Shown piece after piece: positions 10,803 to 64,000 of a stretch of 64,000 bases of DNA (position 1 is the first letter of the stretch; the number at the start of each line of letters is the position of its first letter). Below the pieces are notes generated by a model that made no database searches, was not told the origin of the DNA, and saw only the letters and a list, made by a program, of their open reading frames with translations. The stretch lies in assembly GCF_907164915.1 (NCBI RefSeq), contig NC_061868.1, positions 28,639,819 through 28,703,818 of the forward strand, read 5' to 3'. The translations under genes were made by a program, and so were the position numbers. The DNA comes from Impatiens glandulifera. Lineage: Eukaryota; Streptophyta; Magnoliopsida; Ericales; Balsaminaceae.

Positions 10803-11635
10803 TCAGAAATATGTAGTTTGCCCAGCAGGCTCATTAACAGACTTTACAGTTTCAAGACATTCAATCCTCAACTTTCTTCTCCTCTTTGGTGACTGATCAG
10901 CCAACTGTTGAACAGAGGTTGCACAACTTTTGTCTTTTGTTTTTATTATTCTGAAGAAGTAGTTATAGACCCTTTGACCGTCCATAACTTTGTTGATATT
11001 GATGCGGACTCCACATCCCACATTAACCCGGAGATGTTCGAACATCATGCTGAGATGAGCAGCATAACTAGTTTGCTTCCTTGGAGACGAAAACAACTCC
11101 ACTAGTTTATTGAAAAGGACTTTTTACCAGTTGATGGCTATTCCCTTGAATATAGCCACCACCATCTCAAAACATTCATTGGAGTATACATTATTAGAGA
11201 TTTTTACTTGGAGGGATTTAGAGATGATGTCATTGAGAAGACAAAACTCAGGTTTTAAGAATATATATTCTTCCCGTGAGTCTCAACGGGAGAGGAGATA
11301 TCTGAGAAGACTCTCTTCATCTCAGAAAGGATATCATCCAGATAGGCGTCAAACTTTGTCAACCCCTCCGTCGGAAGCTCGAAAAAATGAGCGAAAACTT
11401 CTTCAGAAATGGAGATGTATGCTCCTTTTATCGTCGCCCGAATATCTCCGTCGACTATCCTCATGACTGCAAAGAACTCACAAACCTCCAGTTCGTGAAT
11501 GATGAAAGGTCCGCCTAAAAACTTTCTCAGGCTGGAGGCTTCAAGAGATTTGAACATTTCAACCATTTCTAGAAGCGCCAAACAGAGAATGGACTCAAAG
11601 TTCACTTGTATTGTGTTTAGAACAAGGGAGGCCAT
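10803..11635 (-). pseudogene. copia-1 env-like ORF (degenerate)
   Basis: The first part (11255-11635) starts MASLVLNTIQVNFESI and contains SLEASSLRKFLGG, ELEVCEFFAV and FFELPTEGLTKF. These align with the three env-like proteins of copia-2 (for example SLIDTGLRTFL and FNLPTEGFSDF). After a frameshift near 11255 the homology continues (LKPEFCLLNDIISKSLQ..AINW) to about 11110, then to an open stretch ending at 10803. The role of this family is unknown; in SIRE-type elements the ORF after pol is called env-like. It is not functional as it stands. Confidence 0.7.
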
Positions 11636-13875: not shown

Positions 13876-13880
13876 CAATG

Positions 13881-14355
13881 TGTTAGGAGTTTTAATTATG
13901 ACCGAGCCTTTCAAGTTCTTTAATTCAAGAAACGGGTTCTTGATGATGAAATTCAACACTCTAGCGCAGCGGACATAGAATTAGAGGAGAATTCGAGGTT
14001 ATGGAGAGAAGAGCCGAAGGGGAGGAGAGAAATACCACTAGATCACACCTAGCGGTCCAAGAAGGGGGAGGAGGGCCGAGAGATAACTTAAACACCAAGT
14101 TCCAAAATATTCAATTCATAGCCCCAAAAAGTGGGGTGGGCATCACCATTTAAAGAGGCTGATTTACCCAAGAGTATTCGGTTACAACAAACTTCCAACA
14201 TAACAGAATTCGGTTTCAAAGAAAGATAAAAGAGAAAGTAAACAAAACAGAATTATTCCATAAAAAACATAAACGGGCCCATATAGACACTTGGGCCGAG
14301 AGACGGATGAATAAAATATTTTAGGACCGAGGTTTTTGATGAGCAGCCCGTAACA
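13881..14355 (-). repeat. 3' LTR of the TR-GAG-like element
   Basis: 475 bp, begins TGTTAGGAGTTTTAATTATG and ends CAGCCCGTAACA. Preceded by CAATG at 13876-13880. Near-identical to 16742-17216. Confidence 0.85.
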
Positions 14356-14433
14356 TTATCCCCCCCCTTCGAAGTTCGTCGCCCTCGACGAAAAGAACAT
14401 GGACTGGTCAGCCTCTAATATGCATCTTCAACT

Positions 14434-16440: not shown

Positions 16441-16470
16441 GTTGAGAATCGGCCAGCTCTGATACCTAGC

Positions 16471-16741
16471 TAAGCTAGAAAAATTCTAATAGCCTCAACT
16501 CTAGCTACATGAGTGAATGACTCCTCAATTTCAATTTCCTCTTCCTGTCTATAGCCTTGAGCTACTAGTCTAACTTTATTTCTTACAATTAAGCCATCTT
16601 CACTTAGTTTATTTCTAAAAACTCATCTCGTTCCAATCACAGTTTGATCATCTGGTCTTGTAACTAAATGTCAAACTTTATTTCTTTCAAATTGGTTTAA
16701 TTCTTCTTGCATAGCATTGATCCAATCTAAATCAAGCAATG
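16471..16741 (-). repeat. displaced 271-bp copy of copia-1 flank between LTR and primer site
   Basis: Near-identical (about three differences) to copia-1 RT sequence at 13610-13880, including the CAATG target site at 16737-16741. Together with the adjacent LTR it makes a 746-bp direct repeat (13610-14355 and 16471-17216). Confidence 0.9.
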
Positions 16742-17216
16742 TGTTAGGAGTTTTAATTATGACCGAGCCTTTCAAGTTCTTTAATTCAAGAAACGGGTTC
16801 TTGATGATGGAATTCAACACTCTAGCGCAGCGGACATAGAATTAGAGGAGAATTCGAGGTTAGGGAGAGAAGAGCCGAAGGGGAGGAGAGAAATACCACT
16901 AGATCACACCTAGTGGTCCAAGAAGGGGGAGGAGGGCCGAGAGATAACTTAAACACCAAGTTCCAAAATATTCAATTCATAGCCCCAAAAAGTGGGGTGG
17001 GCATCACCATTTAAAGAGGCTGATTTACCCAAGAGTATTCGGTTACAACAAACTTCCAACATAACAGAATTCGGTTTCAAAGAAAGATAAAAGAGAAAGT
17101 AAACAAAACAGAATTATTCCATAAAAAACATAAACGGGCCCATATAGACACTTGGGCCGAGAGACGGATGAATAAAATATTTTAGGACCGAGGTTTTTGA
17201 TGAGCAGCCCGTAACA
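16742..17216 (-). repeat. 5' LTR of the TR-GAG-like element
   Basis: 475 bp, begins TGTTAGGAG and ends CCCGTAACA, followed by target duplication CAATG at 17217-17221. A frame at 17043-17282 crossing LTR and copia is accidental. Confidence 0.85.
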
Positions 17217-17221
17217 CAATG

Positions 17222-17840
17222 CTTCATCAATTTTCTTGGGTTCAATTTGAGAAATAAATGCAGAATTTACAATTTCATCCATTAGTTGATTTCTAGTTCT
17301 AAGAGGTGCACTAGAGTTACCTATGATTAGTTCAGGTGGATAGTTTCTGTTCCATTTGAGGTTTGGTCCCAGAGGGTCAACCGTCTGATCATCTGTCTCA
17401 GCAACATCCAGATTGTCAACAGCCTGTTAAAGTTCAATCTGGTTTTCTGGTTGAGTTTCAATTGAGGCAACCGACTAATTAACAAGATCAATTGGCTGAT
17501 CAGATGTGCTGTCTCTAATGACCTGAACCTCATCGTCACTATCAGATTGAAGATTAACAGATTCCAACCTATTAGCTACATCGATGATTTCTTTCGAATT
17601 ACTTTCAACAAATTCATCAAAAACTATATGGGCAGACTCTTCAAAAGTTTATGTTTGTTTATTATAAACTCTATAAGCTTTACTTACTGAAGAATATCCT
17701 AGCATTATACCAGGATTTGTCTTAGCATCAAAGACAGTCAGATAAGTTTTGACATTGTTATGAATAAAACATTTACATCCAAAAATTATAAAATATGATA
17801 TTTTAGGAATTTTGTCATAGAAAATCTCGTAGGGTGTGTT
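17222..17840 (-). pseudogene. copia-1 integrase tail and linker to RT
   Basis: The minus strand encodes a broken GIMLGYSSVSKAYRVYNK (near 17670-17720), KISYFIIFGCKCFIHNN (near 17760-17810) and [17 protein letters not shown] (near 17217-17270). These are collinear with copia-2 (GIMLGYSAVSKAYRVYN and [17 protein letters not shown]). The joined frame across the nested insertion restores IDEAL-LDLDWI. Copia homology stops at about 17840, the truncated 5' edge. Confidence 0.8.
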
Positions 17841-28345: not shown

Positions 28346-28350
28346 GTTAT
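28346..28350. repeat. target duplication GTTAT (left)
   Basis: GTTAT directly before the 5' LTR; the same five bases follow the 3' LTR at 32263-32267. Confidence 0.9.
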
Positions 28351-28678
28351 TGTTGTTTTTGGAACAATTAGAATCCCACATCGAAAGATAATGGGAGTGA
28401 AAGAAGTTTCTTAGTATATAAAAGAAACTATATTCACAATTTGTATAAATCCCACATCGGAAGATGATGGGAGTTGGGGAAGTTTCTTAGTGTATAAAAG
28501 AAACTCTCCCCTCTTTGGTTTATTGCACCCAAATTTGTATCTCTTCTTCCTTATTAATTGATATCCTTAGTGCTCGGAGACGTAGGCAATATTTTGGCCG
28601 AACTCCGTTATCAAATTTTGTTAGTGTTCTTTCAGATTGTTTTCTTCTTTTGTGGTTCTGTCAGGGTTTTCCCCAACA
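28351..28678 (+). repeat. 5' LTR of the Tork-like element
   Basis: 328 bp, TGTTGTTTTTGG..TTTTCCCCAACA. It contains two AATCCCACATCG(A/G)AAGAT repeats, each followed by GTATATAAAAGAAACT, one of which is probably the TATA box. Confidence 0.92.
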
Positions 28679-28680
28679 AG

Positions 28681-28693
28681 TGGTATCAGAGCC
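28681..28693 (+). promoter_or_regulatory. primer binding site (initiator Met tRNA)
   Basis: TGGTATCAGAGCC, two bases after the 5' LTR, complementary to the 3' end of plant initiator Met tRNA. It primes minus-strand DNA synthesis. Confidence 0.9.
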
Positions 28694-28710
28694 GAAGGTT
28701 CGTCCTTGGC

Positions 28711-29480
28711 ATGGTGGAGTTTTCAAAAGGGGCGTCAACTCCTTCGTCATCCTGGACGAGGACACCGATGTCGAATTTGAAGTTTACGGTGGAGATCTTT
28801 GATGGAACTGGGCATTTCGGCATGTGGCAAGGTGAGGTTCTAGATTGTCTTTTTCAGCAGGGTCTAGATGTTGCTATTGAGGTCGGAAAGACAGATGTTA
28901 TAGAAGAAAAAGAGTGAAGTATCATGAATCGGTTGGCGTGCGGAACAATTCGGTTGTGCCTGTCCAGAGAGCAGAAGTATGCTGTGAAGAATGAAACTTC
29001 TGCACAGAAACTGTGGCAAGCATTGGAGGACAAGTTTCTGAAGAAGAGTGGTCAGAATAAGCTCCTTATTAAGAAGCGATTGTTCCGGTTTGAATACCAA
29101 TCAGGTACTACGATGAATGAGCATATAACTAAGTTTAATTAGTTAGTAGCGGATTTGTTAAATCTTGACGTTAGGTTTGAGGATGAAGATTTGGCTTTGA
29201 TGTTGCTATCGTCCCTTCCTGATGAATTTGAACACTTAGAAACAACGTTACTTCATGGAAAGGGAAATGTTTCTCTTGATGCTGTAAGTTCTGCTTTATA
29301 TAGTCATGAATTGAGAAAGCATGATAAAAGGATAAGCAAAGTAGGTACAGCAGATGAAGCATTGATGGTCAGGGGCCGTCAGTAGAGCAAATAAAAAAGG
29401 AAAGAGGAAGATCTGAAAGTAGAGTTGCCAAAGATGAATGTGCTTTCTGTCGTGAGAAAGGACATTGGAATATTAACTGC
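28711..29480 (+). pseudogene. Tork-like gag
   Basis: Starts MVEFSKGAS and continues KFTVEIFDGTGHFGMWQ. It contains KLWQALEDKFLKKSGQNKLL and LLSSLPDEFEHLETTLL (UBN2-type gag), then a CCHC knuckle CAFCREKGHWNINC at about 29441-29480. It is interrupted by a TGA at the expected Trp (about 28915), a TAG in LVADLL's leader (about 29140), stops near 29383, and a frameshift before the knuckle. Confidence 0.8.
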
Positions 29481-29486
29481 CCAAAG

Positions 29487-31844
29487 TTGAAGAAGAAAGA
29501 GAAAGATTCTGAAGATGCGAATGTTGTAGAAAACAAAGGTGATGCACATTCAGAATACTCTTTATCGATGTCACACACAACATCACATCCTGATGCGTGG
29601 ATATTGGACTCAGTCTGCACTTATCATATGACACCAGTTCGAAAGTGGTTCTTTGACTTTAAGGAGCTAGATGATGGAGTTGTTTACATGGGAGATGTTA
29701 GTACATGTAAAATAAAAGGGATAGGTTCAATCAAGCTGAGAAATGAGGACGGATCCACCAGAATTATCAGAGAGGTTCGGTACATATCGAATATGAAAAA
29801 GAATCTCATTTCTTTGGGGGCCTTGGAGTCAAAAGGCCTACAGGTGAAATTGGAAAAGGGAATTCTTAAGGTAATCTCTGGAGCGCTAGTGATGTTGAAA
29901 GCTATCAGGAAGAGTAATAATTTGTATTACTATCAAGGTAGTACAGTTAATGGGACATCATGTGTATCAACTTCCGGGAGCAGTAAGGAGTTAGAGGCAA
30001 CAAAGCTATGGCATATGCAATTGGGGCATGCTGGTGAGAAATCTATGCAAACTCTTGTCAAGCAAGGATTGCTAAAAGGTACAAAACTTTGTAAATTAGA
30101 TTTCTGTGAACATTGTATTCTGGGAAAACAAAGGCGAGTAAAATTTGGCACTGCTATCCACAACACCAAGGGTATTTTGGATTATGTGCACTCAGATGTT
30201 TGGGGACCTGCCAAGACTCCTTCTCTTGGAGGTAGACATTATTTTGTTACTTTTATTGATGATTTTTCCAGAAGAGTTTGGGTGTTTACTATGAAGAACA
30301 AAGATGAAGTGTTTGGGATTTTTCTTAAATGGAAAACTCAAGTTGAAGACGAGACAGGAAGAAAGATCAAAGTTCTCCGGACTGATAACGGTGGAGAATA
30401 CAAGAATGATCCATTCCAGAAGTTATGCCAGGAGTGTGGCACAGTTCGACACTTCACAGTCAGAAAAACACCACAGCAGAATGGAGTATCGGAACGTATG
30501 AACAGGACATTGGTGGAGAAAGTTCGATGTATGTTGTCTAATGCTGGGTTAGACAGGAAATTTTGGGCAGAAGCTATGTCATACGCTCAACATTTGGTAA
30601 ATCGCCTACCATCATCTGCACTTGGTGGCAAGACTCCATTAGAGGTATGGTCTGGAAAACCTGCAACTGATTATGATTCTTTGCATATTTTTGGTTCTGC
30701 TACATATTATCATGTAGTTGAATCAATGTTGGATCCACGAGGAAAGAATGCTCTTTTTATGGGATTTAATACGGGAGTTAAAGAATATCGCCTCTGGTGT
30801 TTGGATGCAAAGAAAACCATTATCAGTAGAGATGTTATTTTTGATGATTATTCAATGTTGAATAAGGTAACACAAGACAAAGTTGATTGTACTCCGCGAC
30901 ATGTGGAGTTTGAGCAGATAAAGATAAGCCCAATAATTAGTGACTCTCCGACGACAGACGAAGAGTTAAATGAGGAAGAGGTTCCAACCCAAGAACCTTC
31001 AGAACAACGTGAATCAATTGTTGTAAACAGGCCAAGACGAGTTACTCAAAAATCAGGTCGGTTTGTTGACATTGCGGCCTATGCACTTCTAGTCGTAGAT
31101 GATGTTCCATCCACTTTTTCAGATGTCAGTCGAAGTACTGAAAATGGAAAAATGAGAGGTGTTATGGAAGATGAGATGCAATCTATTCAGAAGAATGAGA
31201 CATGCAAGTTGAGGCATCTACGAAAAGAGAATAAGGCTATTGGTTGTAAATGGATCTTTGCTAAGAAAGAAGGATTTCCTGAAAAATTTGATGTTCGCTA
31301 CAAGGAAAAATTGGTAGTTAAAGACTACGCTCAGAAGGAAGGAGGTGATCATAATGAGGTACTTTCTCCTGTTGTTAAACACTCTTCCATTAGAATTTTG
31401 TTGGCCTTGGTAGCGCAAATGAATTTGGAGCTAGCTCAACCAGATGTGAAGACCGCATACATACACGGTTATTTGAATGAGGAAATCTACATTTATCAAC
31501 CAGACGGATTCAAAGTTGTTGATAAATAAAATTGGGTTTGGAAGTTGAACAGATCATTGTACAGGTTGAAGCAATCATCGAGACAATGGTACAAATGACT
31601 TGACAAGTTTATGATGGAGCACAAATACACAAGAAGCAGATTCAGTTCATGTGTGTATTTGCGCAAATTGCAAGATGAGTCTTACATCTATCTACTCTTG
31701 TACGTTGATGATATGTTGATAGCATCAAAGAGCCAATATGAAGTTGATAAATTGAAGGCTCAATTGGGTAGAGAGTTCGAGATGAAAGACATGGGGAAAA
31801 CCAAATCTAATTGTTTAGATTTGGTAAACACATTCCGCGTTTGA
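29487..31844 (+). pseudogene. Tork-like pol (protease, integrase, partial RT)
   Basis: An ORF of 680 codons (29487-31529) begins inside gag. Protease site: WILDSVCTYHM, where the usual D-S-G has Val for Gly. Integrase: HMQLGHAGEKSMQ..CEHCILGKQ zinc domain, then catalytic Asp in VHSDVWGP, Asp in LRTDNGGEY and Glu in PQQNGVSERMNRT. RT begins at WIFAKKEGFPEKFDVRYKEK. Stops at 31527-31529 and near 31597 split it from the YVDDMLIAS part (31611-31844). The RT end and all of RNase H are deleted. Confidence 0.9.
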
Positions 31845-31934
31845 GTCGGCGCTGAAGAGCGCCAATTGGAAGCATTGAAGAGCTACTTTTAATATTGAAG
31901 ATTAGTAATTGGATATTGTGCCAAGGTGGAGATT

Positions 31935-32262
31935 TGTTGTTTTTGGCACAATTAGAATCCCACATCGAAAGATAGTGGGAGTGAAAGAAGTTTCTTAGTA
32001 TATAAAAGAAACTATATTCACAATTTGTATAAATCCCACATCGGAAGATGATGGGAGTTGGGGAAGTTTCTTAGTGTATAAAAGAAACTCTCCCCTCTTT
32101 GGTTTATTGCACCCAAATTTGTATCTCTTCTTCCTTATTAATTGATAGCCTTAGTGCTCGGAGACGTATGCAACATTTTGGCCGAACTCCGTTATCAAAT
32201 TCTGTTAGTGTTCTTTCAGATTGTTTTCTTCTTTTGTGGTTCTGTCAGGGTTTTCCCCAACA
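31935..32262 (+). repeat. 3' LTR of the Tork-like element
   Basis: 328 bp, same length as the 5' LTR with about six differences; followed by GTTAT at 32263-32267. Confidence 0.92.
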
Positions 32263-50279: not shown

Positions 50280-50284
50280 AAAAG

Positions 50285-51584
50285 TGTTAGGATCTAGGTC
50301 GCCGCTAGAGGACCGGAGTTGGGCCGGTTAGCGGGTCTCACTTTAAGGGTGGTGGTTAATCCGGTTAGAGATTAACATCGGGGTTTTAATACTACACAAA
50401 CTGTCACAAACCCTTGAACTAGGTTCAAGCGCGGAAGAGGTTTGTTTCAGGTTGAAGCAGCACACTTGTATGATAGGCAGAACCGGTTTCGGATGATGAA
50501 GGTTTGAAGATTGATGGGTCGGTTTTTGTAACCTGGCGGTCCGGTTTGAATAGAGTTAAATAGATTAGAGCGGTGTTGGTCGGTTAGAAAATGGAACCGG
50601 CAGAAAGTAATTAACAAGACAGATTTTATGGATGTTCGGAGATGAAGCTCCTACGTCACCTCTTCCTCTCGAAACCGCAAGAAGGATATTCACTAAGGAA
50701 TACAAGTACAATCCGATCGAGACTTATTTCCTGCTCGATAACACTCTTACAATTTACACCGAAATTGTAAAATACACACTTCAACTCTAGCACTTAGGCT
50801 TTCTCTAGAGATAGAACACACTGTTTTCACTTGTAAATTAAATGCTCGCTATATTGCTCGTGTCTCGCTGTGTGTCCCTCTCAGAATCTCTTGTTGTCCC
50901 GCATTTACTCTTCTTCAACTGCTCCTTTTATAGGTGAAATATGCCAACGGTCATATTTCACTTTCTTGAGTCTGATTGGCTGAGCAGAGGTTCAGTGATT
51001 CAGACTCTGCGGTCATCTGTTCAAACCTGGCGGTCAACTCTGCATACTTTGCAGTCTGTTCTTCCGGTGTGTAGGACAAACCTGCTAGGTTTGTCTTTTA
51101 CTCAATGTGGTAACTGTTGGTTAGACAGTTGTCTGTACTTGGAAGATTGCCTCTGATTTATCCTGAAAGTGGAAAGATCTTGTAGGACTATTTTCTGCAG
51201 CCTGCAGACTTTCCTCAGACTTGTATGGATATGGAAGTATTCAGTCTGTTCATTTGGTATCATCTTCAACAGATACCCGAATTGTCTTCTTGTACTGGCC
51301 GGTCATTCGACTTAACCGGATGGCTTCCGGTGTGAGTGGTTTAACCAGACAGCTTCCGGTTATTCCTTTTCCTTGTGGCTGATCGGCTGTCTGGTGTTTC
51401 CGGTTTTAAGCTTTGGCCGATCCTTTCTTTGTGCGGTTATATTCCGAATGTCCTGGTCGGTTTAATAGCTTAACCGGTTAGTCTTCTTAGCCGGTTCATT
51501 TGTTTGACCGGTCCGGTTCCTTGTTCCTGCATGTAAGGTTTTATTTATGTTAAGTTTTATGAACCGGTCTAATTTTATCTAACA
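50285..51584 (-). repeat. 3' LTR of copia-2
   Basis: 1300 bp, TGTTAGGATCTAGGTCGCCG..TTTTATCTAACA. Rich in CCGGTT/AACCGG motifs. Pairs with 62599-63898. The 71-codon frame at 50941-51156, and its copy in the other LTR, is not a known protein. Confidence 0.93.
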
Positions 51585-51600
51585 ATTTCTCCCTTTTTGA
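51585..51600 (-). promoter_or_regulatory. polypurine tract of copia-2
   Basis: Minus strand CAAAAAGGGAGAAAT directly before the 3' LTR, the plus-strand primer site. A second copy of the block (ATTTCTCCCTTTTTGATT) lies near 51780. Confidence 0.75.
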
Positions 51601-51853
51601 TTATTTTATTTAAAATTATCAAAACTATGTAAGTTTGCAAACGTAAGCCGGTTCTTTTGTTTGACCGGATTTTTGAAACTAACTTGGAAGAATTTTCGAA
51701 AAAAATTTGGAAAATTTTTGAGAAAAGCTTCGGAAAAATTTTGATAAAAATTTCGGAATATTTTATCTTTTATCTTATCAATTTCTCCCTTTTTGATTAT
51801 TTTATTTAAAATTATCAAAACAATGCAAGTATAGGCTGTTTTCAAAAATAGCT

Positions 51854-54460
51854 TTATATATATACGAAGGAAAAACCGAAAAGGGAAAATATTATATAAA
51901 CACTAAAATAAACATAGTTAAAGTAGAGTGAGCCCCTATTCTGAGACGGAGAAGTTGAAGCTGGCCACATATCCTTGGTCCGCTTTTTCTTATCCAGTCT
52001 TGAGACTCGCTGTCTTGTAGGCCGCCGCTCTAGGTTCTCTTCATCTTCTTCTTCGGTGTGAGTAGCCTGGTCTGGTTGACTTTCTATAACCGTGTCAGTG
52101 ATCTCATCCAGCAGCCTGGCTACTTGGGCCTTCTTTGATGTTTTTCTTTTCCGTTTTGCCGGAACCGAAGAGGAAGGGGCCGCCGTTTTCTTCTTCTTGT
52201 GAGCGTCTGCAAAGTCTTCAAGTCTTTGTCTTTCATTATTTAGCCGCTGTGCATCTTTGGCCGCTTGAACCGCTATGGACTTTGCAAGGTCCGGATACTT
52301 AGCCGCTGTCCTTCGTTCTCGCTCGGCTCTTTCTTCTTCAGTAAGTTGCGGTGGCTCCTTTTCTCTTCTCGTTTCTTCGTCCAGCGCATCTTGGACTTCC
52401 TTAGCCGCTCGGGCATTTGCCTCCACAACCGCTGCATCCGCATTCATCTTAGCCTTGAGTAATTCATCAACTTGTGCGGTGAGCGCCTTGAGGTCGGTCT
52501 CGAGTTTGTCGTTGCGGTCTTCAAGACCCGCATTCTTCTTTTCCAGTTTTGAGACCCTGTCAAGTATCGAGCCGACCAGATCCTCAGTGACCTCTGTTAG
52601 TCGTTGATCGGTTTGCCTTTCAAGCCGATCCAAGTCATCCTTTATTCCTGAGGTCTTTTCTTCCAAGGCCTCGGTTCGCTGAAGATGATTGTCGCGCATA
52701 TCCGTTTCGTCCCGGTAATCAGCTTCGATTTGTGAGATCCGGTCATCTGCCCTTACCAGATTATTTCTTGTATTGTTGGCGAACCGAAGTGCTAGGCTCA
52801 CGGTTCTCTTCATCTTCTCCTCTAATGGGTGAACCGTTGAGTCTGCAAACTCTTGAAGGAGGAACTTAACCCTTTCTTCTGTAATGCCCGGTTCGGAGAC
52901 TCCAGGTTGCTCGGTGAAAGGAGCTTCTATCCTTTCGTCGGTTTCGTTTATCACCGGATCCGCCCGAGGAGGTGTTGCACCATGATTTTGACCGTCGTCG
53001 GTCTCAGAAGCTAGAGTGTGCGGTCTTTCTCGATGTCTGCACACCGCTTCCAGCCGCTCTATTTCTTCATCGAATTCTCCTCTCGCTTTCTCAAGTTTTT
53101 CTAACACCAGGAGCTGTAAGTTAGCCTCCGATGTTCCCTCGACGTACCTTTCCTTAATCTTCCGGATCCGTCCGGTTAGCTTCTGTAGCCGGGCTCGCGG
53201 TCTTATGATGGTGGTTCGGCCCAAGGCTTGGTGAATAGTTTCGGCGTTTGTGAGGCTCATGACTGTTTCCTCTATTTCCTTCAGCCTTCGGAAACACTCT
53301 TCGTTGGTTAGGCCCGATAATATATGTTTGTAAAGTCTGTTGAATCGGTGCTCGTGCCATTCCCGGTATAATTCGCTGACCGCTTCAGCTCGCAATTCAA
53401 TGTCCTCCAGGATCCGACGCGCTACAAAATCGGCATTCTTCTGGTCGTCCTCCTCTTCACTTCCTTCTTCACCGGCCTCGGCGTGCTCAGAACTTGCCGC
53501 ACCGGTGTTATCAGGACTTGTACCCTCCTCCTCTTCTTCATTCGGTCTTTCTTCATCGGTTTTCTGTGAGTCGGTTCGTTCAGATGAGGAAGCCGATTCG
53601 TCCTCATCCCTTGTTTGTGATGGTGGTTCTGAGAATACTATCTTCTCATTGCCCTTGCCTCCGGTCTTTTCTTTCGCCGGGGCCGATTTCTTTGCGGATT
53701 TCTTCTGTCGGCCACTTGTGGAACCGGGGGCCGGCTGCTTCCTCTCCAGGAAGTGTTTGGATCTGATTAACCTTCCTGATGGGATAATGACACCAGGACC
53801 GGTGTTGATGTTGTGGTGGATCAAGATTTTTCCAAGGGGGATGGCGTATCCCCATGACCAGGTTGAATCCGATTTCACCATATCTTTCAAATTGTTGAAT
53901 ATTTCCTTCGCCCAGTTCACCTTCGTGCCTTCTATCAAACCGACTAGCATCCCGATTTTGGCCTTGGTGAGGCTGTTGTAATTTCCACCTCTCGCCTGAA
54001 CCGCCTTTGTGAAGATGTCACAAAGCGGTATGTACTCTGGTCGTAGTGTCGCTTTGTTACCGGATACTTTTACTGGTTCCTTGGTTGCTGAGAGTATCTG
54101 GCATGCTGCCTCGAACGTTGTTAGTTCTAGCTCCGACGCTGCATCTTAGTCGTCTGTTGGAAGGCGTAGACTCTCTGCAACCGATTCTTCGGTTATCTCG
54201 AATTCAGTACCGCTGACAGTCGCGGTAATTTTGTCGCCAGATAGAGTTGCGGTTTTGAAGAATTCTTCAACCGCTTCTCTATATAGAACATGGAGACCGC
54301 CGAGAAAATACTCAAGACCGGCTTCGGTTACCTGGTCAATAACTCCTTTTGCTGCAGGCGTCCCCTTTTGTCGGATTTCCTCGAAATCCACCTGAGTCAT
54401 GTGTTTGAACAAAACCGAATTGCGCCCCATCTTAGATGATTGAGAGAGTTTGAAAAACAC
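51854..54460 (-). pseudogene. copia-2 env-like unit 3 (long, coiled-coil, one stop)
   Basis: Frame of 869 codons with one TAA at 54146-54148. The N-terminal domain has VTEAGLEYFLGGLH, EAVEEFFKTATLSGD and ESVAESLRLPTDD, paralogous to units 1 and 2, and continues NWAKEIFNNLKDMV near 53915. After it come a basic stretch (SGRQKKSAKKSAPAKEK), an acidic segment, a long charged coiled-coil region (about 53200-52200, with LEEKTSGIKDDLDRLERQ), a KKxKR-rich block, and a hydrophobic C-terminal tail (YVYFSVYIIFSLFGFSFVYI) that could be a membrane segment. Function is unknown; 'env-like' is a positional label and I see no fusion-protein signature. The start may be 54460 or the second ATG at 54430. Confidence 0.75.
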
Positions 54461-54545
54461 GAGAGTAAATAACCGCTGAGAGAATTTGAGAGCTTAGAGA
54501 GAGAAAGTTGTTTCGCGTGAGAGTGAAATGAAGTGGCCAAGAGCC

Positions 54546-54553
54546 CCTTTTAT
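54546..54553 (-). promoter_or_regulatory. TATA-like box upstream of env-like unit 3
   Basis: ATAAAAGG on the minus strand, 86-116 bases before the candidate ATGs, followed by a CT-rich leader (TTTCTCTCTCTAAGCTCTC). A core promoter is inferred. Confidence 0.4.
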
Positions 54554-55054
54554 GGGTGCGGTTTGGAAACCCAACCGTCCCATCAACATTTGGCGGGAGT
54601 TTTCCCTCCAAGCCGAAAAGGCGGCAAACCGTGGGCGGGAAGCCAAAAAGGCGGTAATCGAAGAGGCGCCAATCTGTGGGCGGTAAACCAAGAGCGGGAG
54701 ATTTGGGCAGGGAATTTCCCTCCAAAATTTTCGCTTTCGACTTTGATGACGCAATCTCCTTTTGAAATCGATTGATGCTGCGGTTTTGTTAACCGGAGAG
54801 TTATCGAGAGTTAACCGGTTATATTGAATAAGCAGAATTTTGCAATCTTTTGAGTTTAAACGGTTTTCTTTGAGACCGGATAGGAGCACGGTTATTTTGA
54901 CAATGTTAACCGGATACTTAGATAGATATTCAAAATATTCAGATGACCCGGTCATTTAAACTTAAATAGAATTGTATTGAAAAAACATTACAAAATAGAG
55001 ACCGAAAGATAGATCGGTGTGAAGATAGACATACATAAGATGGAAAGATACAAC
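54554..55054. other. spacer between env-like units 2 and 3
   Basis: The 54600-54730 part repeats GGGCGG(T/G)AA(A/G)CC-like motifs rich in GGCGG. Minus frames here do not match the env-like family. Probably an upstream regulatory region of unit 3 plus the unit 2 3' end. Confidence 0.4.
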
Positions 55055-55759
55055 TTATGTAATAACCACTTTAGAAAACCTTTCTTCCACCGCATCCATG
55101 TCAAGGATGTTCGAAGGGGATGCCGGTGTGCCCGGTCCAAACTCTGGCCGGTACTTGAGAATTAGCTTACTTATGTGAGGGGAATAACCGAGACCTTTCT
55201 TGGTTAGCACCATGTCTTTCAGGTTTTGAAAAATGACCGTTGACCAGTTGATGGCCGTTTTGCTAACCATGTGAGTCATTATGTTGTATGTGTTCTTAGA
55301 GTACCGCTGATTTGGAGATTGACAAAGGATAGACCGGGTCACAATCTCAAGAAGAAGTTGGGCGTGACGACCGAGTCGGGTTTTTAACCCATAGTTTTCC
55401 ACCGGAACAATGGTTCCAGAGAAGAATAGAGCATGTTCATATGCCGCACTTCCCTCCTGGGTTGGAAAGTCAGAAAACCCTTCTGTGGGTAAGTTGAACA
55501 TGGAGGCAAATTCGGCTTCATCAAGCCAGAAAGTGTGGTCTCTCACCGTAGAGACGATGTAGTTACCTCTGATGCAAGCACTTCTAAAGAACGTCTTGAC
55601 ATCCTCAATCAGTATGGGACCGGATTCTTCGAGAAAGGTTCGAAGGCCGGTGTCAATGAGAGATTCAAACATGATTTCCTTTGCATGATTTCCGTCCCAA
55701 TGTTCCATGCATGATTCGAAATCGACGCTCAAAAAGTTTCCTAAGGTTCGGCTCGGCAT
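55055..55759 (-). CDS. copia-2 env-like unit 2 (short)
   Basis: Uninterrupted 234 residues starting MPSRTLGNFLSVDFES. Shared features with units 1 and 3 are SLIDTGLRTFLEE, EDVKTFFRSACIRGN, EAEFASMFNLPTEGFSDF, LLLEIVTRSILCQ, and TAINWSTVIFQNLKDMV. It ends soon after the NW block (..ERFSKVVIT), so it has only the N-terminal domain and no coiled-coil tail. I do not know its function. It is the only one of the three with a clean frame. Confidence 0.7.
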   Translation of the reverse strand: MPSRTLGNFLSVDFESCMEHWDGNHAKEIMFESLIDTGLRTFLEESGPILIEDVKTFFRSACIRGNYIVSTVRDHTFWLDEAEFASMFNLPTEGFSDFPTQEGSAAYEHALFFSGTIVPVENYGLKTRLGRHAQLLLEIVTRSILCQSPNQRYSKNTYNIMTHMVSKTAINWSTVIFQNLKDMVLTKKGLGYSPHISKLILKYRPEFGPGTPASPSNILDMDAVEERFSKVVIT

Positions 55760-55847
55760 GATTACGGTTTTGCTGAGAGATAGAGATCAAGAGATTTCAA
55801 GAGAATTTTGTGGTTTAGAATGTGTTGAGTTGATTAGAGGATGGCCC

Positions 55848-55855
55848 TTTATATA
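55848..55855 (-). promoter_or_regulatory. TATA box upstream of env-like unit 2
   Basis: TATATAAA on the minus strand inside GACCCTATATAAAGGGCC, 89 bases before the ATG at 55759. The leader has TTCTCTTGAAATCTCTTGAT, which is partly shared with copia-1. The best TATA match of the four. Confidence 0.5.
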
Positions 55856-55859
55856 GGGT

Positions 55860-56216
55860 CGGTTTTGGAGGGAAAATATTATCATTGAATGTCAGTTTTG
55901 TCTCATTAGAGAATAGAATCTTTATGTTTCCAAGGTTCATTGGGAAGAGGCTGATTGCGAAGCTCGAGGTAAGTGTTAGTTGAAAAGTAACCAAGTTGGT
56001 TGGATAATAATTATTTAGGTGGTTGGGGGTTACCTCATTAATTAAATATTACTTTTTCATTAATGCACCAATATAATGAAAAGTAGTCAAAAGAAACCGA
56101 GAATAACATAGATAAGGCCGAAGTAAACATAAAGAAAGCCGAGATGGTCACAGTGATGTTGGATAAAGATACACCCGGTGCGTGCAGCAAAATGACCGGG
56201 TGTAGAAAGGAGTAAC
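55860..56216. other. spacer between env-like units 1 and 2
   Basis: No supported ORF; frames at 56038-56296 are accidental. Holds the likely 5' region of unit 2. Confidence 0.4.
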
Positions 56217-56978
56217 TTAGTGTCCGTTGGAGTTGACGACACCGTTGGGGTTGTTGCGGCGGTTCCTCCTCCTCCAAGCCCTTTCAAACCGCTCATAAAA
56301 GGAGTCAGTTATTTCCTTTGTTAGCACTTGAGCTTGGTTTAGACCTTCGCCTGGACAGGTCGGTACTCCAAGCTCAACAAGTAGGCAGCTTAGTTGGGGA
56401 ACGAGGCCGACTATTCGAACGCCAATCATCCAGATTAGGACGTCGAAGAGTACCCTTGACTAGTTCACCGGTGTACCGGTGGTGATAGCAGCCATCATAT
56501 TGAAAGTCGTTGTACAGTAGGTGTTCGTCACATCTCTCCCTAAGATGCTTCGACCTATTACGTCATTGAGGAGCTGATATTCAGCTTTCAAGAGTGATTT
56601 CGTACCTTGGTCATCAATAGGTTCATCAGACCGTGCAAAGGTTAGAGAGATCTCGGCCTTCAAGTCGGCCGGAACATTAAGATCTGTTAAGCCTTGCTTT
56701 GGCAGGCTGAAACACCTCGCAAAATCATTCTCGGTGAAGTCAAAGACTATACCTCCCACTTTTGATTGGATATGAGTATCGAAGTGGGGAGTGCCTCTGA
56801 ACACCCTAGCATTATACAAGAATTCCAGGACTGATTCAGAGTATATAGTCTGCTTGTCATCCAGGAAGTATCGAAGACCAGTGTCTTCCAGGGATTTGAT
56901 CACTTTGTAGACCTCATAGTGTTCGGTGCTCAAGGCAGATTGGAAGTCGACTTGAAAGATGTTAGGAAACTGAGACAT
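56217..56978 (-). pseudogene. copia-2 env-like unit 1 (one stop)
   Basis: Starts MSQFPNIFQVDFQSALS and carries SLEDTGLRYFLDDK, ESVLEFLYNARVFRG, ENDFARCFSLPKQGLTDL and LLNDVIGRSILG. A TAG at 56460-56462 sits where the paralogues have the Trp of the INW block; the same frame continues FDVLIWMIGVRIVGLVP to a basic end (RFERAWRRRNRRNNP) at 56217. About 254 codons in all, N-terminal domain plus a short basic tail. Confidence 0.7.
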
Positions 56979-57039
56979 TTTTGCCTTAGTGAGAGAATGA
57001 TCTTTTGTCTTGTGAGTGTTTTGGTTAATGTTTGCTTCT

Positions 57040-57047
57040 CTTAAATA
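57040..57047 (-). promoter_or_regulatory. TATA-like box upstream of env-like unit 1
   Basis: TATTTAAG on the minus strand, 62 bases before the ATG at 56978, followed by an A/C-rich leader. A weaker match than unit 2. Confidence 0.35.
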
Positions 57048-57489
57048 CTAGTTGGGGGAGTATCCTATTATCCAGGTATTACATGTGATAATGTCTAATA
57101 ACTGCAGGATAAAAGGTATTGCATGAAACAGGCATGTTTGCAGTCTAGGGTGTTGGTCATAGACCTAGACCATGAAAGATATCAGATCTTCACGTCTTTT
57201 TAGGTGCGACCATTTTACTTTGAAAAGGCAATGTTTCAGAACAGATATCTGTAAACACTGATAGTTATTCCACTTTTGTTTGAATTTCAAATATTCTAAG
57301 ATGACCTATTTCCAAACCGGTCAGTTATCAGTTGTTCATCCCGATGCGGTTATTTGGTGCAAACACTAAATAACCGGTCGGTTTACTCTGTTTGATAAAC
57401 TGGGCAGTTCTTCCATAGATACCGAGAAAATTCGAAGTCCAACAATTGAGGAGGAACTACCGGTTTTGTCTGTCTGAACTGATTTTCCT
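57048..57489. other. spacer between RNase H and env-like unit 1
   Basis: No ORF supported. The pol stop is at 57490 and the next gene starts at 56978, so 440 bases are available for a promoter or splice acceptor. Confidence 0.4.
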
Positions 57490-60400
57490 TTAAGCATCCT
57501 TAGGAAGGATCTGACTAATGTCGGTTAAACCGAGAGTAAGTCTAAATTGAGAGAACTTAGCTTCCTGTAGAGGCTTTGTGAAGATATCGGCTACTTGTTG
57601 ATCTGTCGGTACGTATTCTAGCCGGATATGCTTCAGCATGACATGTTCCTGGATGAAGTGGTGCTTTATGTCAATGTGCTTGGTTCTGGAGTGGAGAACC
57701 GGATTATAGGTGATTGCTATGGCACTCGTGTTGTCACAGAAGATCGGAGACTCTTCGGCTATGACACCGAAGTCCGTCAGTTGTTGTTGGATCCAAAGGG
57801 GTTGTGAGCAGCAGCTTCCAGCCGCTAGGTATTCAGCTTCTGCAGTTGATGTGGCCACCGATGTCTGTTTCTTGCTATGCCATGAAACAAGCCGGTCACC
57901 TAGGAACTGACATGTTCCGCTGGTGCTTTTTCTGTCAATCTTACAACCTACATAGTCTGCATCTGAATAACTCGTTATGTTAAAGGACGAGTCCTTTGGA
58001 TACCACAGGCCGACATCAGGTGTTCCCTTTAGGTACTTCAATATTCTCTTTACGGCTGTGTAGTGGGATTGTTTTGGATTGGCTTGGAATCTTCCACACA
58101 CACCGACTGCAAATAGAATGTCCGGTCTACTCGCTGTCAGGTATAGGAGAGAACCGATGATGCCCCGATAAGCGATCTGGTCTACCGATTGACCCTCATC
58201 ATCCTTGTCCAATTTATACGATGAGCTCATTGGAGTAGCCGTTGAGGAACATGTATCCATCCCAAACTTCTTTAGAAGCTCCTTGGTGTACTTGAGTTAA
58301 CTTATGAAAGTTCCTTCTTCGAGTTGTTTAACCTGAAGACCTAGGAAGAAACTTAATTCTCCCATCATACTCATTTCAAACTTGTTAGTCATCAGGGTTG
58401 AAAATTTATCACACAGCTTAGGATCGGTTGAACCGAAGATGATATCATCTACATAGATTTGAACAAGTAAGATATGCCCTTTTTTCTCAAACCTGAAAAG
58501 TGTTTTGTCCACCGAACCGATGGTGAAGTTATGTTCTATCAAAAATGCAGTTAGTGTGTCATACCAGGCTCTAGGTGCTTGCTTTAGACCGTATAAAGCT
58601 TTGTTGAGCCGGTATACATGGTTTGGAAATTCAGCACTTTTGAAGTCGGGTGGTTGTTCGACATACACCTCTTCACGTAGGTCACCATTCAAAAATGCAC
58701 TCTTAACATCCATTTGAAAAACCTTAAAGTTTTTGAAAGTAGCAAAGGCTAGAAATATTCTAATGGATTCAATCCTAGCTACAGGGGCAAATGATTCTTC
58801 AAAATCAATGCTTTCTTCCTGTTTGTAACCTTGCGCCACTAATCTGGCTTTGTTCCTCGTGACCAAACCGTCTTCATTGAGTTTGTTTCTAAATACCCAT
58901 CTTGTTCCTATGACCGGTTGATCTTTCGGTCTAGGGACTAGGTACCAGACTTTATTACTCTCAAACTGGTTTAGCTCTTCTTGCATTCGCAAAATCCAAT
59001 CCGGATCTGACAATGCTTCATCTATTCTTTTCGGCTCAATCTGGGATATGAAAGCGGAATTAAAATATTCTTCCAGAAGTTGACGCCTAGTTCGAACAGG
59101 TTCTGAAGGGTCACCTATAATTTTCTCAGGAGGATGTTTGGTGTTTCTTTTGAAGTTCGGTTCAGGGATGTCTACCAGATTACCGTTTATTTGATCAATT
59201 CTAGACATGTCGGTAGGCTAAACAGGATTGTCAGACCGACCGACTTCCTCGGATTGGACCGAAGTGTCAGCTTCCTGTTGTGGGACAGCTTGATCCGGCT
59301 GGGTTTCAATATTACCCATTTGGTCATGGACAAACCGCCTGAAGACCGGTGTCTCATCTTCACTATCAGAGTGGATATTGTTGTTTTCCAATCTGTTGTG
59401 TATATCAAAGCATGATGCAATATTACTTTCAACCGATTCATCGAAAACCACGTGAAGTGATTCCTCCATGGTTAAAGTTCTATTATTGTACACTCTATAT
59501 GCCTTACTCACTGCTGAGTAGCCTAACATGATCCCAGTATCGATTTTTGCATCAAATGCAGAAAGATATGTTTTACCATTTATATGAATGTAGCATTTAC
59601 AACCGAAAACCTTGAGGTATTTAAGATTGGGAACCCTGTTAAAATAAACCTCATATGGTGTTTTGTTATGAAACTTGTTAATCAGAGACCGATTTTGTGT
59701 GTAACATGCAGTATTGATAGCCTCAGCCCAAAATTTCTAGGCAATACCCGAATCAGCTATCATGGACCGTGCGACTTCCTTGAGAGTTCGGTTTCTTCTT
59801 TCGGTCAGGCCATTTTGTTGAGGAGTCCTAGCACTAGACAACTCGTGTCTAATACCGGATTCATCAAGAAATGCGGTTAAGGTACTATTGGTAAATTCGG
59901 TACCTCTATCACTTCTAATGCTATTGATGCGAGTTGATTTTTCATTTTGCAAACGTTTAAGCAGTGTGATCAAGTTTGATGCGGTTTCACGTTTAGATGG
60001 CAAAAATATTACCCATGTAAATCTAGAATAATCATCAATAACTACCATGGTGTAAAGCATACCTCCTAGGCTAACGACCTGAATCGGTCCAAATAAATCC
60101 ATGTGAAGGAGATCTAAGCATCGGCTAGATTGGATATTTCCTTTACTCTTAAAGGTTGACTTGGTCTGTTTACCCATTTGACATGCTGAACAAACCTTAT
60201 CCTTGTTAAATACTATGTCAGGAATACCTTCAACTAGCTTTTTGCCGCGAATGTAGTTTAAGGTTTTCATGTTTAGATGGTTTAGTCTCTTATGCCACAA
60301 CCAGGTTTGATCAGTCTTAGTTATCATGCATATAGGGTGTTCTACCTTAGTTTTCCAGTCTACCTTGTAAATATTTCCTAGCCTATTTCCGGTTAGCAGT

Positions 60401-60765
60401 ATAATGCCTTGAGAGTTCTTAACTAAGCATGCATGTTTAAGAAATTATACCGTGTATCCAGCATCACACATTTGACTAATGCTTAGCAAGTTAAAACGTA
60501 GGTTTTCAACTAGAAGTACGTTATCAATAGTTAAGTTACCATGGACAATCTTACCCTTTCCCACAGTTCTACCTTTTGAGTTATCACCGAAGGTGATTAA
60601 TGCACCGGTTTCTATTCTGATGTCGGTTAGCAGGTTGTTGTTCCCGGTCATAAGCCTGGAGCAACCACTATCCAAGTACCATTCAGAATTTCCTAGCCGT
60701 TTCATTATATCCTGCAAAATGTACATATTTACAACTATTTGGTACCCACATTCACTTGGGTCCAC
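57490..60765 (-). pseudogene. copia-2 pol: protease, integrase, RT, RNase H
   Basis: A single frame from 60765 to 57490 with four in-frame stops (60445, 59737, 59218, 58297). Protease: WYLDSGCSRLMTG (near 60660). Integrase: HKRLNHLNMKTL..CSACQMGKQ zinc domain, catalytic Asp in LHMDLFGP, Asp in IRSDRGTEF, Glu in [53 protein letters not shown] and YVDDIIFGS. RNase H: YSDADYVGCKIDRKSTSG..TAEAEYLAAG and DNTSAIAI..HSRTKHIDIKHHF. Two of the stops (59737, 58297) sit at likely Gln codons. All catalytic residues remain. Confidence 0.9.
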
Positions 60766-62559
60766 ATGCGATTAGTCCCTTGGGTATCCAAACCTTGACA
60801 AACCGGACAACCTTCTTTGCTAAGGTTTTAACCGTTCTTTTGGCACTCGGTCTTGGATATCTCGGTTTTTCTACAAAAGTCTTAAATGAGGGTGATATTT
60901 GGTTTGACCTATGCGGTTGAGGATTGGCTTTCTTATTTTTGAGAAGGTCGGCTTTTCTTTTCTCAGGATCAAGCCACTTCTCAGAGTCGGTTGGACCAAC
61001 ATAGTTGTACTTTAGTTTTTCTTCCGTATAATATGCGGTCAATTCTTCTTCAGCGGTCAAGGAGCTTTTGATGAATCTTATAAGAGGAAGGTTACTCCTT
61101 GTAAACCTTACTTTCTCTACGGGTTTTTGGTCTTTGGAGCTATCCTTTGTGTATCCTAAGCCGAACATGCAAAAAGGGTGTCTGTAATGACTACACATTT
61201 TCTTTACCATGTCACTAGATCTCTTATATGCAGCCATCTTATACTGGAGTCGGGCATTTTCTTCCTCGGTTAGTTCTCTAGCTGGTTCATTGGGTTGTTC
61301 GGTCCTAATTGGTGGTTCAGGTTCTAATTCGGTTTCTATGTTAGGGATTTCATCAGGTTCCATGACCTCTGGTTCGGTTATAACGGGTACTTCTGGTTCT
61401 GTCGGAATGGGTACTATAGGGTCGTTTCTAAGGTTGAGTTTCTTAGGTAACATAGCTAGTAGGTTCTTATACTCTTCTACCATGTCATTCAATGCATTAT
61501 ATAACTCATCTTTAGTAAATTCTTCACAGGGAGAGTCAAATACATGTTCCTCATTTGCCATGAGACATGTGAGTTCATCATCACTGTCACTGTGAGCCCA
61601 TAGACTTCCTCCATCATCGGCTATCAGTGCTTTCTGAACCTCACTTCCTTCACCGGTTTGTTGATAGTTGTTTCGGTTATCTTGGTTATCCGGTTTCCGG
61701 TTATCCCTCCTCGGTTTTCTGCATTCCCACTTAAAATGTCCCAAACAGTTACAGTTATAGCACCTTACATTGGATTTATCACCATAGTTGTAGTTTGTCG
61801 GTTGGCTTCTTTTCATGAACCTCCCAAACTTCTGTGCAAGCATTTCCATGGAATCCTCAGTGAACTGTTCGGCGGTTCTGATCGGTGCAGGTGCAGGAGC
61901 AACCGGTTCTGTGGATGTGATCAGTGCTCTGGTTGAGGTTGAAGCCGAAACTTCTTCTTCAGTTCTAGATCTCATTTCAAACTCATATGCCTTAAGATCT
62001 TCGAATACATCATGCAGCTTCATCTTGTTTAGGCAGTTTGATTCCCTCATCACCATTGTCTTTATGTCCCATGCACTTGGAATAGATCTTAAAGCTTTCA
62101 TGATAACTTCCTTGTTGTCATACCTCTTGCCAAGAGTTGCTAACTCATCTAGAACACCAGTGAACCGGTCACTGTACTCTTTCATTGTTTCTCCCGGTTT
62201 CATCTTGATGCTTTCAAATTTCTGAGTAGCCACCATTATCTTGTTTCCTTTGTTCTTTCATTTCCCTCAAAGATCTGAATAACCGTGTCCCATGTCTCCT
62301 TTGCGGTTTTGCAGTCTCTGATTTTGCAGTATGTATTTCTATCCACACTGTTGGAGATCCGGTTTCTAGCATGGTTGTCCAGGTTATTTCTTCTCCTGTC
62401 TTCACCTGTCCATTCCTTTCTGTCCTTATCGATGATTATCGGTCCTTCGGCCAGAATGGACTCCATCTCATCATCCAAAGTGATTAAGTGTAGGTGCATG
62501 CGTGCCTTCCAGTTGGCAAAATCATCACCTTCTAGCATTGGAGGCCTATCGAAAGACAT
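60752..62559 (-). pseudogene. copia-2 gag (frameshifted)
   Basis: Starts MSFDRPPMLEGDDFANWKAR at 62559 (gag N-terminal motif) and shifts frame near 62236. It then continues VATQKFESIKMKPGETMKEY..MKALRSIPSAWDIK (UBN2-type gag) and a CCHC knuckle VRCYNCNCLGHFKWECRKP near 61745. The ~330-residue C-terminal extension is Glu/Pro-rich (PIPTEPEVPVITEPEV) and basic, as in long SIRE gags. The protease lies in another frame from 60765. Confidence 0.88.
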
Positions 62560-62584
62560 GCTTGCTTGAGTATTGAAACTAACT

Positions 62585-62596
62585 GCTCTGATACCA
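62585..62596 (-). promoter_or_regulatory. primer binding site of copia-2
   Basis: TGGTATCAGAGC on the minus strand, two bases after the 5' LTR end at 62599; complementary to initiator Met tRNA. Confidence 0.9.
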
Positions 62597-62598
62597 AT

Positions 62599-63898
62599 TG
62601 TTAGGATCTAGGTCGCCGCTGGAGGACCGGGGTTGGGCCGGTTAGCGGGTCTCACTTTAAGGGTGGTGGTTAATCCGGTTAGAGATTAACACCGGGGTTT
62701 CAATACTACACAAACTGTCACAAACCCTTGAACTAGGTTCAAGCGCGGAAGAGGTTTGTTTCAGGTTGAAGCAGCACACTTGTATGATAGGCAGAACCGG
62801 TTTCGGATGATGAAGGTTTGAAGATTGATGGGTCGGTTTTTGTAACCTGGCGGTCCGGTTTGAATAGAGTTAAATAGATTAGAGCGGTGTTGGTCGGTTA
62901 GAAAATGGAACCGGCAGAAAGTAATTAACAAAACAGATTTTATGGATGTTCGGAGATGAAGCTCCTACGTCACCCCTTCCTCTCGAAACCGCGAGAAGGA
63001 TATTCACTAAGGAATACAAGTACAATCCGATCGAGACTTATTTCCTGCTCGATAACACTCTTACAATTTACACCGAAATTGTAAAATACACACTTCAACT
63101 CTAGCACTTAGGCTTTCTCTAGAGATAGAACACACTGTTTTCACTTGTAAATTAAATGCTCGTTGTATTGCTCGTGTCTCGCTGTGTGTCCCTCTCAGAA
63201 TCTCTTGTTGTCCCGCATTTACTCTTCTTCAACTGCTCCTTTTATAGGTGAAATATGCCAACGGTCATATTTCACTTTCTTGAGTCTGATTGGCTGAGCA
63301 GAGGTTCAGTGATTCAGACTCTGCGGTCATCTGTTCAGACCTGGCGGTCAACTCTGCATACTTTGCAGTCTGTTCTTCCGGTGTGTAGGACAAACCTGCT
63401 AGGTTTGTCTTTTACTCAATGTGGTAACTGTTGGTTAGACTATTGTCTGTACTTGGAAGATTGCCTCTGATTTATCCTGAAAGTGGAAAGATCTTGTAGG
63501 ACTATTTTCTGCAGCCTGCAGACTTTCCTCAGACTTGTATGGATATGGAAGTGTTCAGTCTGTTCCTTTGGTATCATCTTCAACAGATACCCGAATTGTC
63601 TTCTTGTACTGGTCGGTCATTCGACTTAACCGGATGGCTTCCGGTGTGAGTGGTTTAACCGGACAGCTTCCGATTATTCCTTTTCCTTGTGGCTGATCGA
63701 CTGTCTGGTGTTTCCGGTTTTAAGCTTTGGCCGATCCTTTCTTTGTGCGGTTATATTTCGAATGTCCTGGTCGGTTTAATAGCTTGACCGGTTAGTCTTC
63801 TTAGCCGGTTCATTTGTTTGACCGGTCCGGTTCCTTGTTCCTGCATGAAAGGTTTTATTTATGTTAAGTTCTGTGAACCGGTCTAATTTTATCTAACA
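62599..63898 (-). repeat. 5' LTR of copia-2
   Basis: 1300 bp, same length as 50285-51584, about 20 differences by eye. Followed by AAAAAGTATT. Confidence 0.93.
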
Positions 63899-64000
63899 AA
63901 AAGTATTGACTAGAGTTTTTCTTTTAATTTGTAGTTTGGTGATACTCGAAAAGGGCTTTCGCGCAGTGTCAGACTTGAGATTTCGAGGCCTGAGGCAAGC
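63899..64000. other. right flank of copia-2
   Basis: Contains AAAAGGGCTTTCGCGC and TTCGAGGCCTGAGGC, possibly the continuation of the gypsy-LTR-like sequence at 49937-50279 that copia-2 interrupted. Too short to classify. Confidence 0.3.

Follow-up and report, generated by a model that had tools for sequence, protein, structure and literature searches.

Three paralogous accessory genes, each behind a predicted promoter of its own, in a SIRE/Maximus-like copia retrotransposon of Impatiens glandulifera

We analyzed a 64,000-nucleotide (nt) stretch of the Impatiens glandulifera genome (NC_061868.1:28,639,819-28,703,818 of assembly GCF_907164915.1; hereafter the window, the positions of which serve as coordinates throughout), where a 13.6-kb Ty1/copia element on the minus strand (50282..63899) carries three related accessory genes, here called U1, U2, and U3, between pol and its 3′ long terminal repeat (LTR). 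On that strand, U1 occupies 56217..56978 (253 amino acids in intact copies), U2 55055..55759 (234 amino acids), and U3 51854..54430 (~900 amino acids), and a TATA-type site stands before each start codon: a TATA box reading TATTTAA at 57041..57047, 69 nt before the ATG of U1, another reading TATATAAAG at 55847..55855, 96 nt before that of U2, and a TATA-like site, CATAAAA in this copy, at 54548..54554, 124 nt before that of U3. A preliminary description of this DNA had reported three minus-strand open reading frames (ORFs) in this region, and coding units that share a domain do lie where it placed them, but U2 is the sole intact ORF of the three in this copy, with in-frame stops interrupting U1 (56460-56462) and U3 (54146-54148), and U3 starts at 54430. 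The U3 product consists of the shared core followed by an acidic, serine-rich, and coiled-coil-like part with basic clusters that look like nuclear signals, while its last ~25 codons in this copy result from a frame shift into the 3′ flank; a Pfam match of U3 to XRCC4_CC, which bears on the coiled coil, remained sub-threshold (E 0.0014). Not included in that first reading, and treated below, are the TATA boxes, diverged relatives that share the layout, and a second copia element with a single unit at ~11-18 kb of the window.

The three products resemble one another at the protein level. In BLASTP comparisons, U1 and U2 are 33% identical (E 7e-22), U2 matches U3 with E-values of 4e-9 and 1e-9 (one for each U3 piece), and U1 matches the first U3 piece with E 2e-9. 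The shared domain, for which the preliminary description had suggested a comparison of hidden Markov model profiles, was recovered by exactly that approach, with 12-copy alignments giving probabilities of 99.4% over 219 columns for U1-U2, 98.8% over 218 for U1-U3, and 98.7% over 197 for U2-U3. On these comparisons, U1, U2, and U3 are true paralogues. Among intact copies from the same genome, the Pfam family PF20167 (Transposase_32) was matched by U1 (12/12, as the best match), U2 (10/12), and the U3 core (12/12), with scores in the first rows of 26.5, 19.2, and 18.3 bits, respectively, that did not reach the curated cut-off of 45 bits. We take the units to be weak relatives of Transposase_32, the kin of which include Athila ORF1 (PF03078) as reported in PMC11728184; PF03078 itself was not among the Pfam matches of the units. 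Searching a protein database with U2 gave 111 candidates and none at E 0.001, a profile search of the PDB gave no match at E 1, and the shared domain offers no catalytic hint.

The layout recurs across the genome. A genome search with U3 scored 63 other places among 10801 candidates, and for 40 of these we fetched 5.5 kb of upstream sequence; RNase H, U1, U2, and U3 followed one another in fixed order in 36 of the 40 copies, with RNase H present in 36, U1 in 37, and U2 in 39. A single unit in other family members was what the preliminary description had named as the outcome that would speak against it, and this was not what the copies contained. U2 on its own gave at least 150 scored matches at 84% identity or higher (18360 first-look candidates), and among 3707 candidates, a family search with PF20167 scored 150 places, of which 43 exceeded the cut-off (one of those only with its neighbors), while the same search in 14 control genomes gave no place. 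From the PF20167 places we chose three diverged elements (L069, L070, and L071) for their long or open frames, a non-random choice, and all three proved to be copia elements with the order pol-U1-U2-U3, with RNase H 75-88% identical to that of the window element and units 33-55% identical. L070 and L071 share 77% DNA identity and are therefore counted as one clade, so that the three elements represent two further clades. In a 16-row tree, the units cluster by position, with the minimum of 2 changes (support 100/99 for U3, 94/96 for U2, and 63/59 for U1), and because they group in this way across elements, these clades most likely arose after the triplication. The proposal of a multi-gene accessory cassette that arose by duplication inside a SIRE/Maximus-like copia thus agrees with the layout in the 36 copies and in all three diverged elements.

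A further proposal, that two of the copies had been reduced to a core domain, fared less well. Elsewhere in the window, a second copia element, diverged and broken, lies on the minus strand at 11000-17800 with an RNase H 71% identical to that of the first and one Transposase_32-like unit. This unit (10805..11635, minus strand) is itself broken and diverged, has TATAAAG 151 nt before its ATG, and, with its end read by eye, appears core-only with a short tail. Because the single-unit relative also appears core-only, an ancestral core-only form, with the long tail of U3 acquired later, is no less likely than reduction.

Selection was assessed on an alignment of 32 rows (the window plus 31 copies) that also underlies the analyses of TATA sites and alleles below; nine of the 40 copies (L010, L018, L019, L024, L028, L032, L033, L042, and L048) were truncated or rearranged and were left out. 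The comparison of nonsynonymous and synonymous substitution rates (dN/dS) for each unit, another check proposed at the outset, gave mean pairwise values of 0.08 for U1, 0.22 for U2, and 0.19 for the U3 core, with 0.24 for the RNase H end of pol, while control values were 0.56-0.75 in six linker frames and 0.98-1.52 in three shifted unit frames. By these ratios, each unit is under purifying selection, which rules out decay of U1 and U2 and does not fit their having been reduced. Stop-free, in-frame rows numbered 15 for U1, 11 for U2, 18 for the U3 core, and 13 for RNase H. U2 looked odd in L018 and L024, which was traced to a broken frame and to an internal loss.

The TATA-type sites are as widespread in the family as the units they precede. 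At the place of the U1 box, 29/32 rows read TATWWAA, and TATAWAW stands at the places of the U2 box and the U3 site in 30/32 rows each, the best U3 site being TATAAAA in 26 rows. The distances to the start codons are likewise characteristic, mostly 66-72 nt for U1 (TATTTAA or TATATAA), 81-102 nt for U2 (TATATAA), and 121-126 nt for U3 (TATAAAA), and the U2 box is constant though the leader behind it varies. Across the ~4.5 kb compared, TATAWAW common to at least eight rows was found only at the three places before the ATGs (12 rows for U1, 30 for U2, and 30 for U3), and at no place on the opposite strand. Of 13 unit starts taken together from five elements, 12 had a TATA-type site between −36 and −160 (1.57 expected from dinucleotide shuffles), the sole exception being the window U3 with its CATAAAA, and the boxes lie 66-151 nt before the unit starts overall. 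In L069, L070, and L071, such a site stands 66-121 nt before the start in 9/9 units, and since the DNA match of L069 to the window region is restricted to U2, the L069 boxes are not merely unmutated neighbors. What we looked for as the mark of an RNA polymerase II promoter belonging to the gene itself, a TATA box at promoter distance, was found.

Promoter and gene also appear to move together. The U1 rows divide into a first class of 15 and a second of 17, to which the window belongs; distances in U1 average ~18% between classes and 10% within, and the between-class excess runs from ~57260, upstream of the U1 TATA box, to 55760 at the U2 start codon, with background on both sides. This block (55760..57260, minus strand) comprises the U1 promoter, its ORF, and the linker to the U2 ATG, while the between/within ratio is near background in RNase H (1.08), U2 (1.04), and U3 (1.06). 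The TATA form follows the class, with TATATAA in 12/15 rows of class 1 and TATTTAA in 15/17 of class 2. In our reading, related elements have recombined and thereby exchanged a block of promoter and gene. Over this block, L034 and L038 of the second class seem to carry a third U1 allele, which lies ~0.15-0.2 from both main classes.

The element that carries these genes has an LTR pair, a target duplication, a primer-site-like sequence, a copia-type gag, and a copia-type reverse transcriptase, the features by which we assigned it to Ty1/copia. Its LTRs (5′ LTR, 62596..63899; 3′ LTR, 50282..51585; both on the minus strand) are 98.16% identical over 1304 bp, and the Kimura two-parameter distance of 0.0187 places the insertion at about 0.7 million years ago with an assumed rate of 1.3e-8 substitutions per site and year. 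The 5-bp target duplication CTTTT is on both flanks. The 5′ LTR has a TATA box of its own (CTATAAAAGG) and is followed by the primer-site-like TGGTATCAGAGC, of the tRNA-Met type. The gag gene (60752..62559, minus strand; two open pieces) matches the copia-type family Retrotran_gag_2 at E 2.5e-10, with a weak zinc-knuckle match, and pol (57490..60765, minus strand; several open pieces) holds an RVT_2 reverse transcriptase by Pfam (E 1.1e-68), with its RNase H end assigned by eye and position. A polypurine-tract block of ~62 bp is doubled just before the 3′ LTR, with both copies after U3: the upstream copy at 51768..51830 (minus strand) contains AAAGGGAGAAATTG and is 93.7% identical to the terminal copy at 51573..51634 (minus strand), which extends into the 3′ LTR, and the exact pattern is present in both. 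Two Sirevirus features are found here, namely extra sense ORFs between pol and the 3′ LTR and multiple (two) identical polypurine tracts. The exact Sirevirus octamer AGGGGGAG has three matches in the window and none inside 50282-63899, where the variant AAAGGGAG stands in its place; because the exact octamer is missing and a doubled variant is present, we call the element SIRE/Maximus-like, on general knowledge and the features tested, and do not claim the genus Sirevirus.

The preliminary description had called the three genes env-like and had noted a terminal hydrophobic segment in U3, neither of which holds in the rest of the family. We read U3 ends from a conserved anchor in 27 other copies. 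In 25 of them, the frame stops where a basic cluster gives way to a brief acidic peptide that ends the protein; of the other two, one runs on for a few more residues and one stops sooner. The claimed segment (~51935-51857) lies beyond this family stop, where the frame of the window copy is shifted and continues into the 3′ flank. Two other clades, for which pieces of U3 were read (that of L071 is fragmented), also showed no such segment. Judged from hydropathy only, the top 19-residue values in the window family are 0.63 for U2 and 0.73 for the coding part of U3. The candidate role of U3 as an env-like membrane protein was rejected on these three grounds. According to PMC3414828, Sirevirus ENV-like genes share little beyond transmembrane and coiled-coil domains, whereas U3 lacks a transmembrane segment in the family; the loss of the supposed membrane segment makes "env-like" an unsupported label for this group and argues for a soluble or nuclear role.

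We consider it probable that the three paralogous accessory genes of this SIRE/Maximus-like copia are each a separate transcription unit with a TATA core promoter and leader of its own, and it is likewise fairly likely that each unit is transcribed from its predicted promoter, apart from the genomic RNA. Short mRNAs would then start at the three TATA boxes, besides the genomic RNA from the LTR, and would yield two core-only proteins (U1 and U2) and one core-plus-long-tail protein with nuclear-signal-like basic clusters (U3). These would not be envelope proteins in the membrane sense; they may be soluble partners and perhaps, as a weaker suggestion, a single heteromeric complex with U3 as scaffold, acting in a step outside the gag-pol products such as nuclear or particle trafficking, nuclear entry, or relief of silencing. 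A bolder form of this proposal, which we regard as possible but rather doubtful, is a copia clade with an accessory set like that of complex retroviruses in layout though not in construction, in which three old paralogues would be autonomous promoter-gene modules, exchangeable as blocks among lineages, and subunits of one hetero-oligomeric factor (e.g., an anti-silencing or nuclear-entry complex) that could be produced independently of the LTR promoter.

Several points weigh against these proposals. Promoter activity is inferred from sequence, and the motif set and distance range of the 13-start test were set after the sequences had been seen; strict TATAWAW occurs in eight of the 13 starts. 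The count of conserved TATA places (2 in at least 24 rows and 3 in at least eight) is no more than column shuffles give (means of 0.92 and 3.19), so the unusual feature is the placement of all three sites before ATGs, not their number. Two other places, 56048 (TATWWAA, 21/32) and 54285 (a looser motif, 21/32), were marked as well, and neither lies just before a unit. Among the diverged elements, which were selected for open frames rather than at random, the TATA sites of L070 and L071 are not independent, and the U1 of L070 is without a start codon, its distance being measured to the homologous place. In the tree, which came with a warning of long branches, the U1 group is weak owing to the long L069 row. 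In part of the rows, the ATGs are also preceded by pyrimidine-AG (splice-acceptor-like) sites that might serve spliced mRNAs, the commonest place being shared by 21/32 rows for U1, 14/32 for U2, and 13/32 for U3. The U1 core has a stretch with a 19-residue hydropathy of 1.5-2.1, which would allow a membrane contact of U1. Finally, the AlphaFold model of U2 (six rows) is poor, with a predicted local distance difference test (pLDDT) score of 44.7, and any function is a guess.

The alternatives differ chiefly in how the genes would be expressed and what they would encode. All three could be expressed by alternative splicing from the LTR promoter, with the TATA boxes incidental or mere boosters, and the acceptor-like AG sites near the ATGs in part of the rows would suit this, as would the precedent that splicing is reported for Bagy2, predicted for Athila, and cited as the route for other plant env-like genes (PMC2829016, PMC7264820). 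Those acceptor-like sites are, however, less constant (21, 14, and 13 of 32 rows) than the TATA sites (29, 30, and 30 of 32), and all nine units of three other elements also have a TATA-type site in front, so that we think splicing a minority prospect, unlikely though far from negligible. If the element had instead captured the units from its host, promoters included, and selection now maintained them mainly as genes of the host, each would be expected to resemble a complete gene with promoter and leader, as each does; yet the units are preceded by a copia RNase H in 36 of the 40 copies and in the three diverged elements, and U2 alone is present in the numbers given above. A minority of the 150 PF20167 matches was placed in an element, and we judge such capture very improbable.

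Little more favors the classic reading in which U3 would be a membrane glycoprotein for cell-to-cell passage and U1 and U2 its degenerate copies. The location after pol, the coiled-coil-like tail of U3, the terminal hydrophobic stretch of the first reading, and the moderately hydrophobic stretch in the U1 core all point that way, but in 25 of the 27 other copies U3 stops ahead of that stretch, the U3 pieces read from two other clades do not have it, U1 and U2 are under purifying selection, and the hydropathy maxima of U2 and U3 are low, which makes this classic reading highly unlikely. As for an accidental triplet that was passively amplified with one successful lineage, the window copy is partly broken by its stops in U1 and U3, as are many others; against this stand triplets in two further clades with units clustering by position and purifying selection on all three. 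We ruled out a one-off rearrangement by the layout in 36/40 copies, the diverged triplets, and the tree, and hold passive hitch-hiking to be scarcely credible.

Other features of the window lie outside the 13.6-kb element. Inside the second copia, two direct repeats of 746 bp (13610-14355 and 16471-17216) are 99.2% identical and enclose an ORF (14434-16092) that appears by eye to be gag-protease and lacks reverse transcriptase; the whole has the look of a non-autonomous LTR element nested in the copia. Direct repeats of 329 bp, 98% identical, at window 28350-32262 flank a copia-like pol ORF (29487-31529) and probably mark a third, short copia. At 23013-25454, two ORFs resemble, by eye, a Mutator-like (MULE) transposase, and 733-1239 reads as a stretch of unknown residues (masked or withheld bases).

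Among known systems, the element is closest in description to SIRE1/Maximus, copia elements of 8.5-14.4 kb with LTRs of ~1.3 kb on average, an extra sense gene after pol (the env-like gene eORF-3′F), an LTR TATA box, and two or more polypurine tracts close to the 3′ LTR (PMC2829016, PMC6317226), and it resembles them in size, LTR length, the extra sense gene after pol, the LTR TATA box, and the multiple polypurine tracts, of which the published Sirevirus mean is four (PMC2829016). It differs from them in having three paralogues rather than one gene, each with a TATA box of its own, in a U3 without a membrane segment, and in a polypurine tract that reads AAAGGGAG rather than AGGGGGAG. As these sources describe it, SIRE1 uses stop-codon suppression (PMC2829016), and an extra sense ORF after pol is present in 74% of SIRE elements, these ORFs forming 19 groups with little or no similarity, any function of which is questioned (PMC6317226). 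With the Ty3/gypsy Athila elements, the units share the domain superfamily of the Athila ORF1 (PF03078) and Transposase_32 proteins, judged from their sub-threshold Pfam matches, and ORF(+) of a sunflower element, Athila 14, is reported to be similar in part to PF20167 and to have a predicted nuclear signal (PMC11728184); unlike in Athila, the genes here belong to a copia element and number three, every one of them behind a promoter-like site of its own. Maize Grande (Ty3/gypsy) is described as having an accessory gene, gene23, with its own promoter (PMC7264820), which is antisense and single and so is set apart from the units here by description, not by sequence. Three paralogous extra genes with their own TATA boxes in a copia were not found described in our searches of open-access papers, which is weak evidence of absence.

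In complex retroviruses, several small genes follow pol and precede the 3′ LTR, and the element described here likewise has several genes in that position, a likeness that we offer as analogy only. Whether Sirevirus env-like genes have promoters of their own is an old question: Peterson-Burch and Voytas (2002) are credited with having proposed an internal promoter and found none, and the account in PMC2829016 gives no conclusive identification. The triplet of conserved TATA sites makes this question directly testable, and with three paralogues, dN/dS not above that of the pol end, and a genome that holds at least 150 copies of U2, both promoter use and function come within direct reach of experiment. 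If true, the domain common to Athila-type proteins would connect the accessory genes of copia and gypsy elements.

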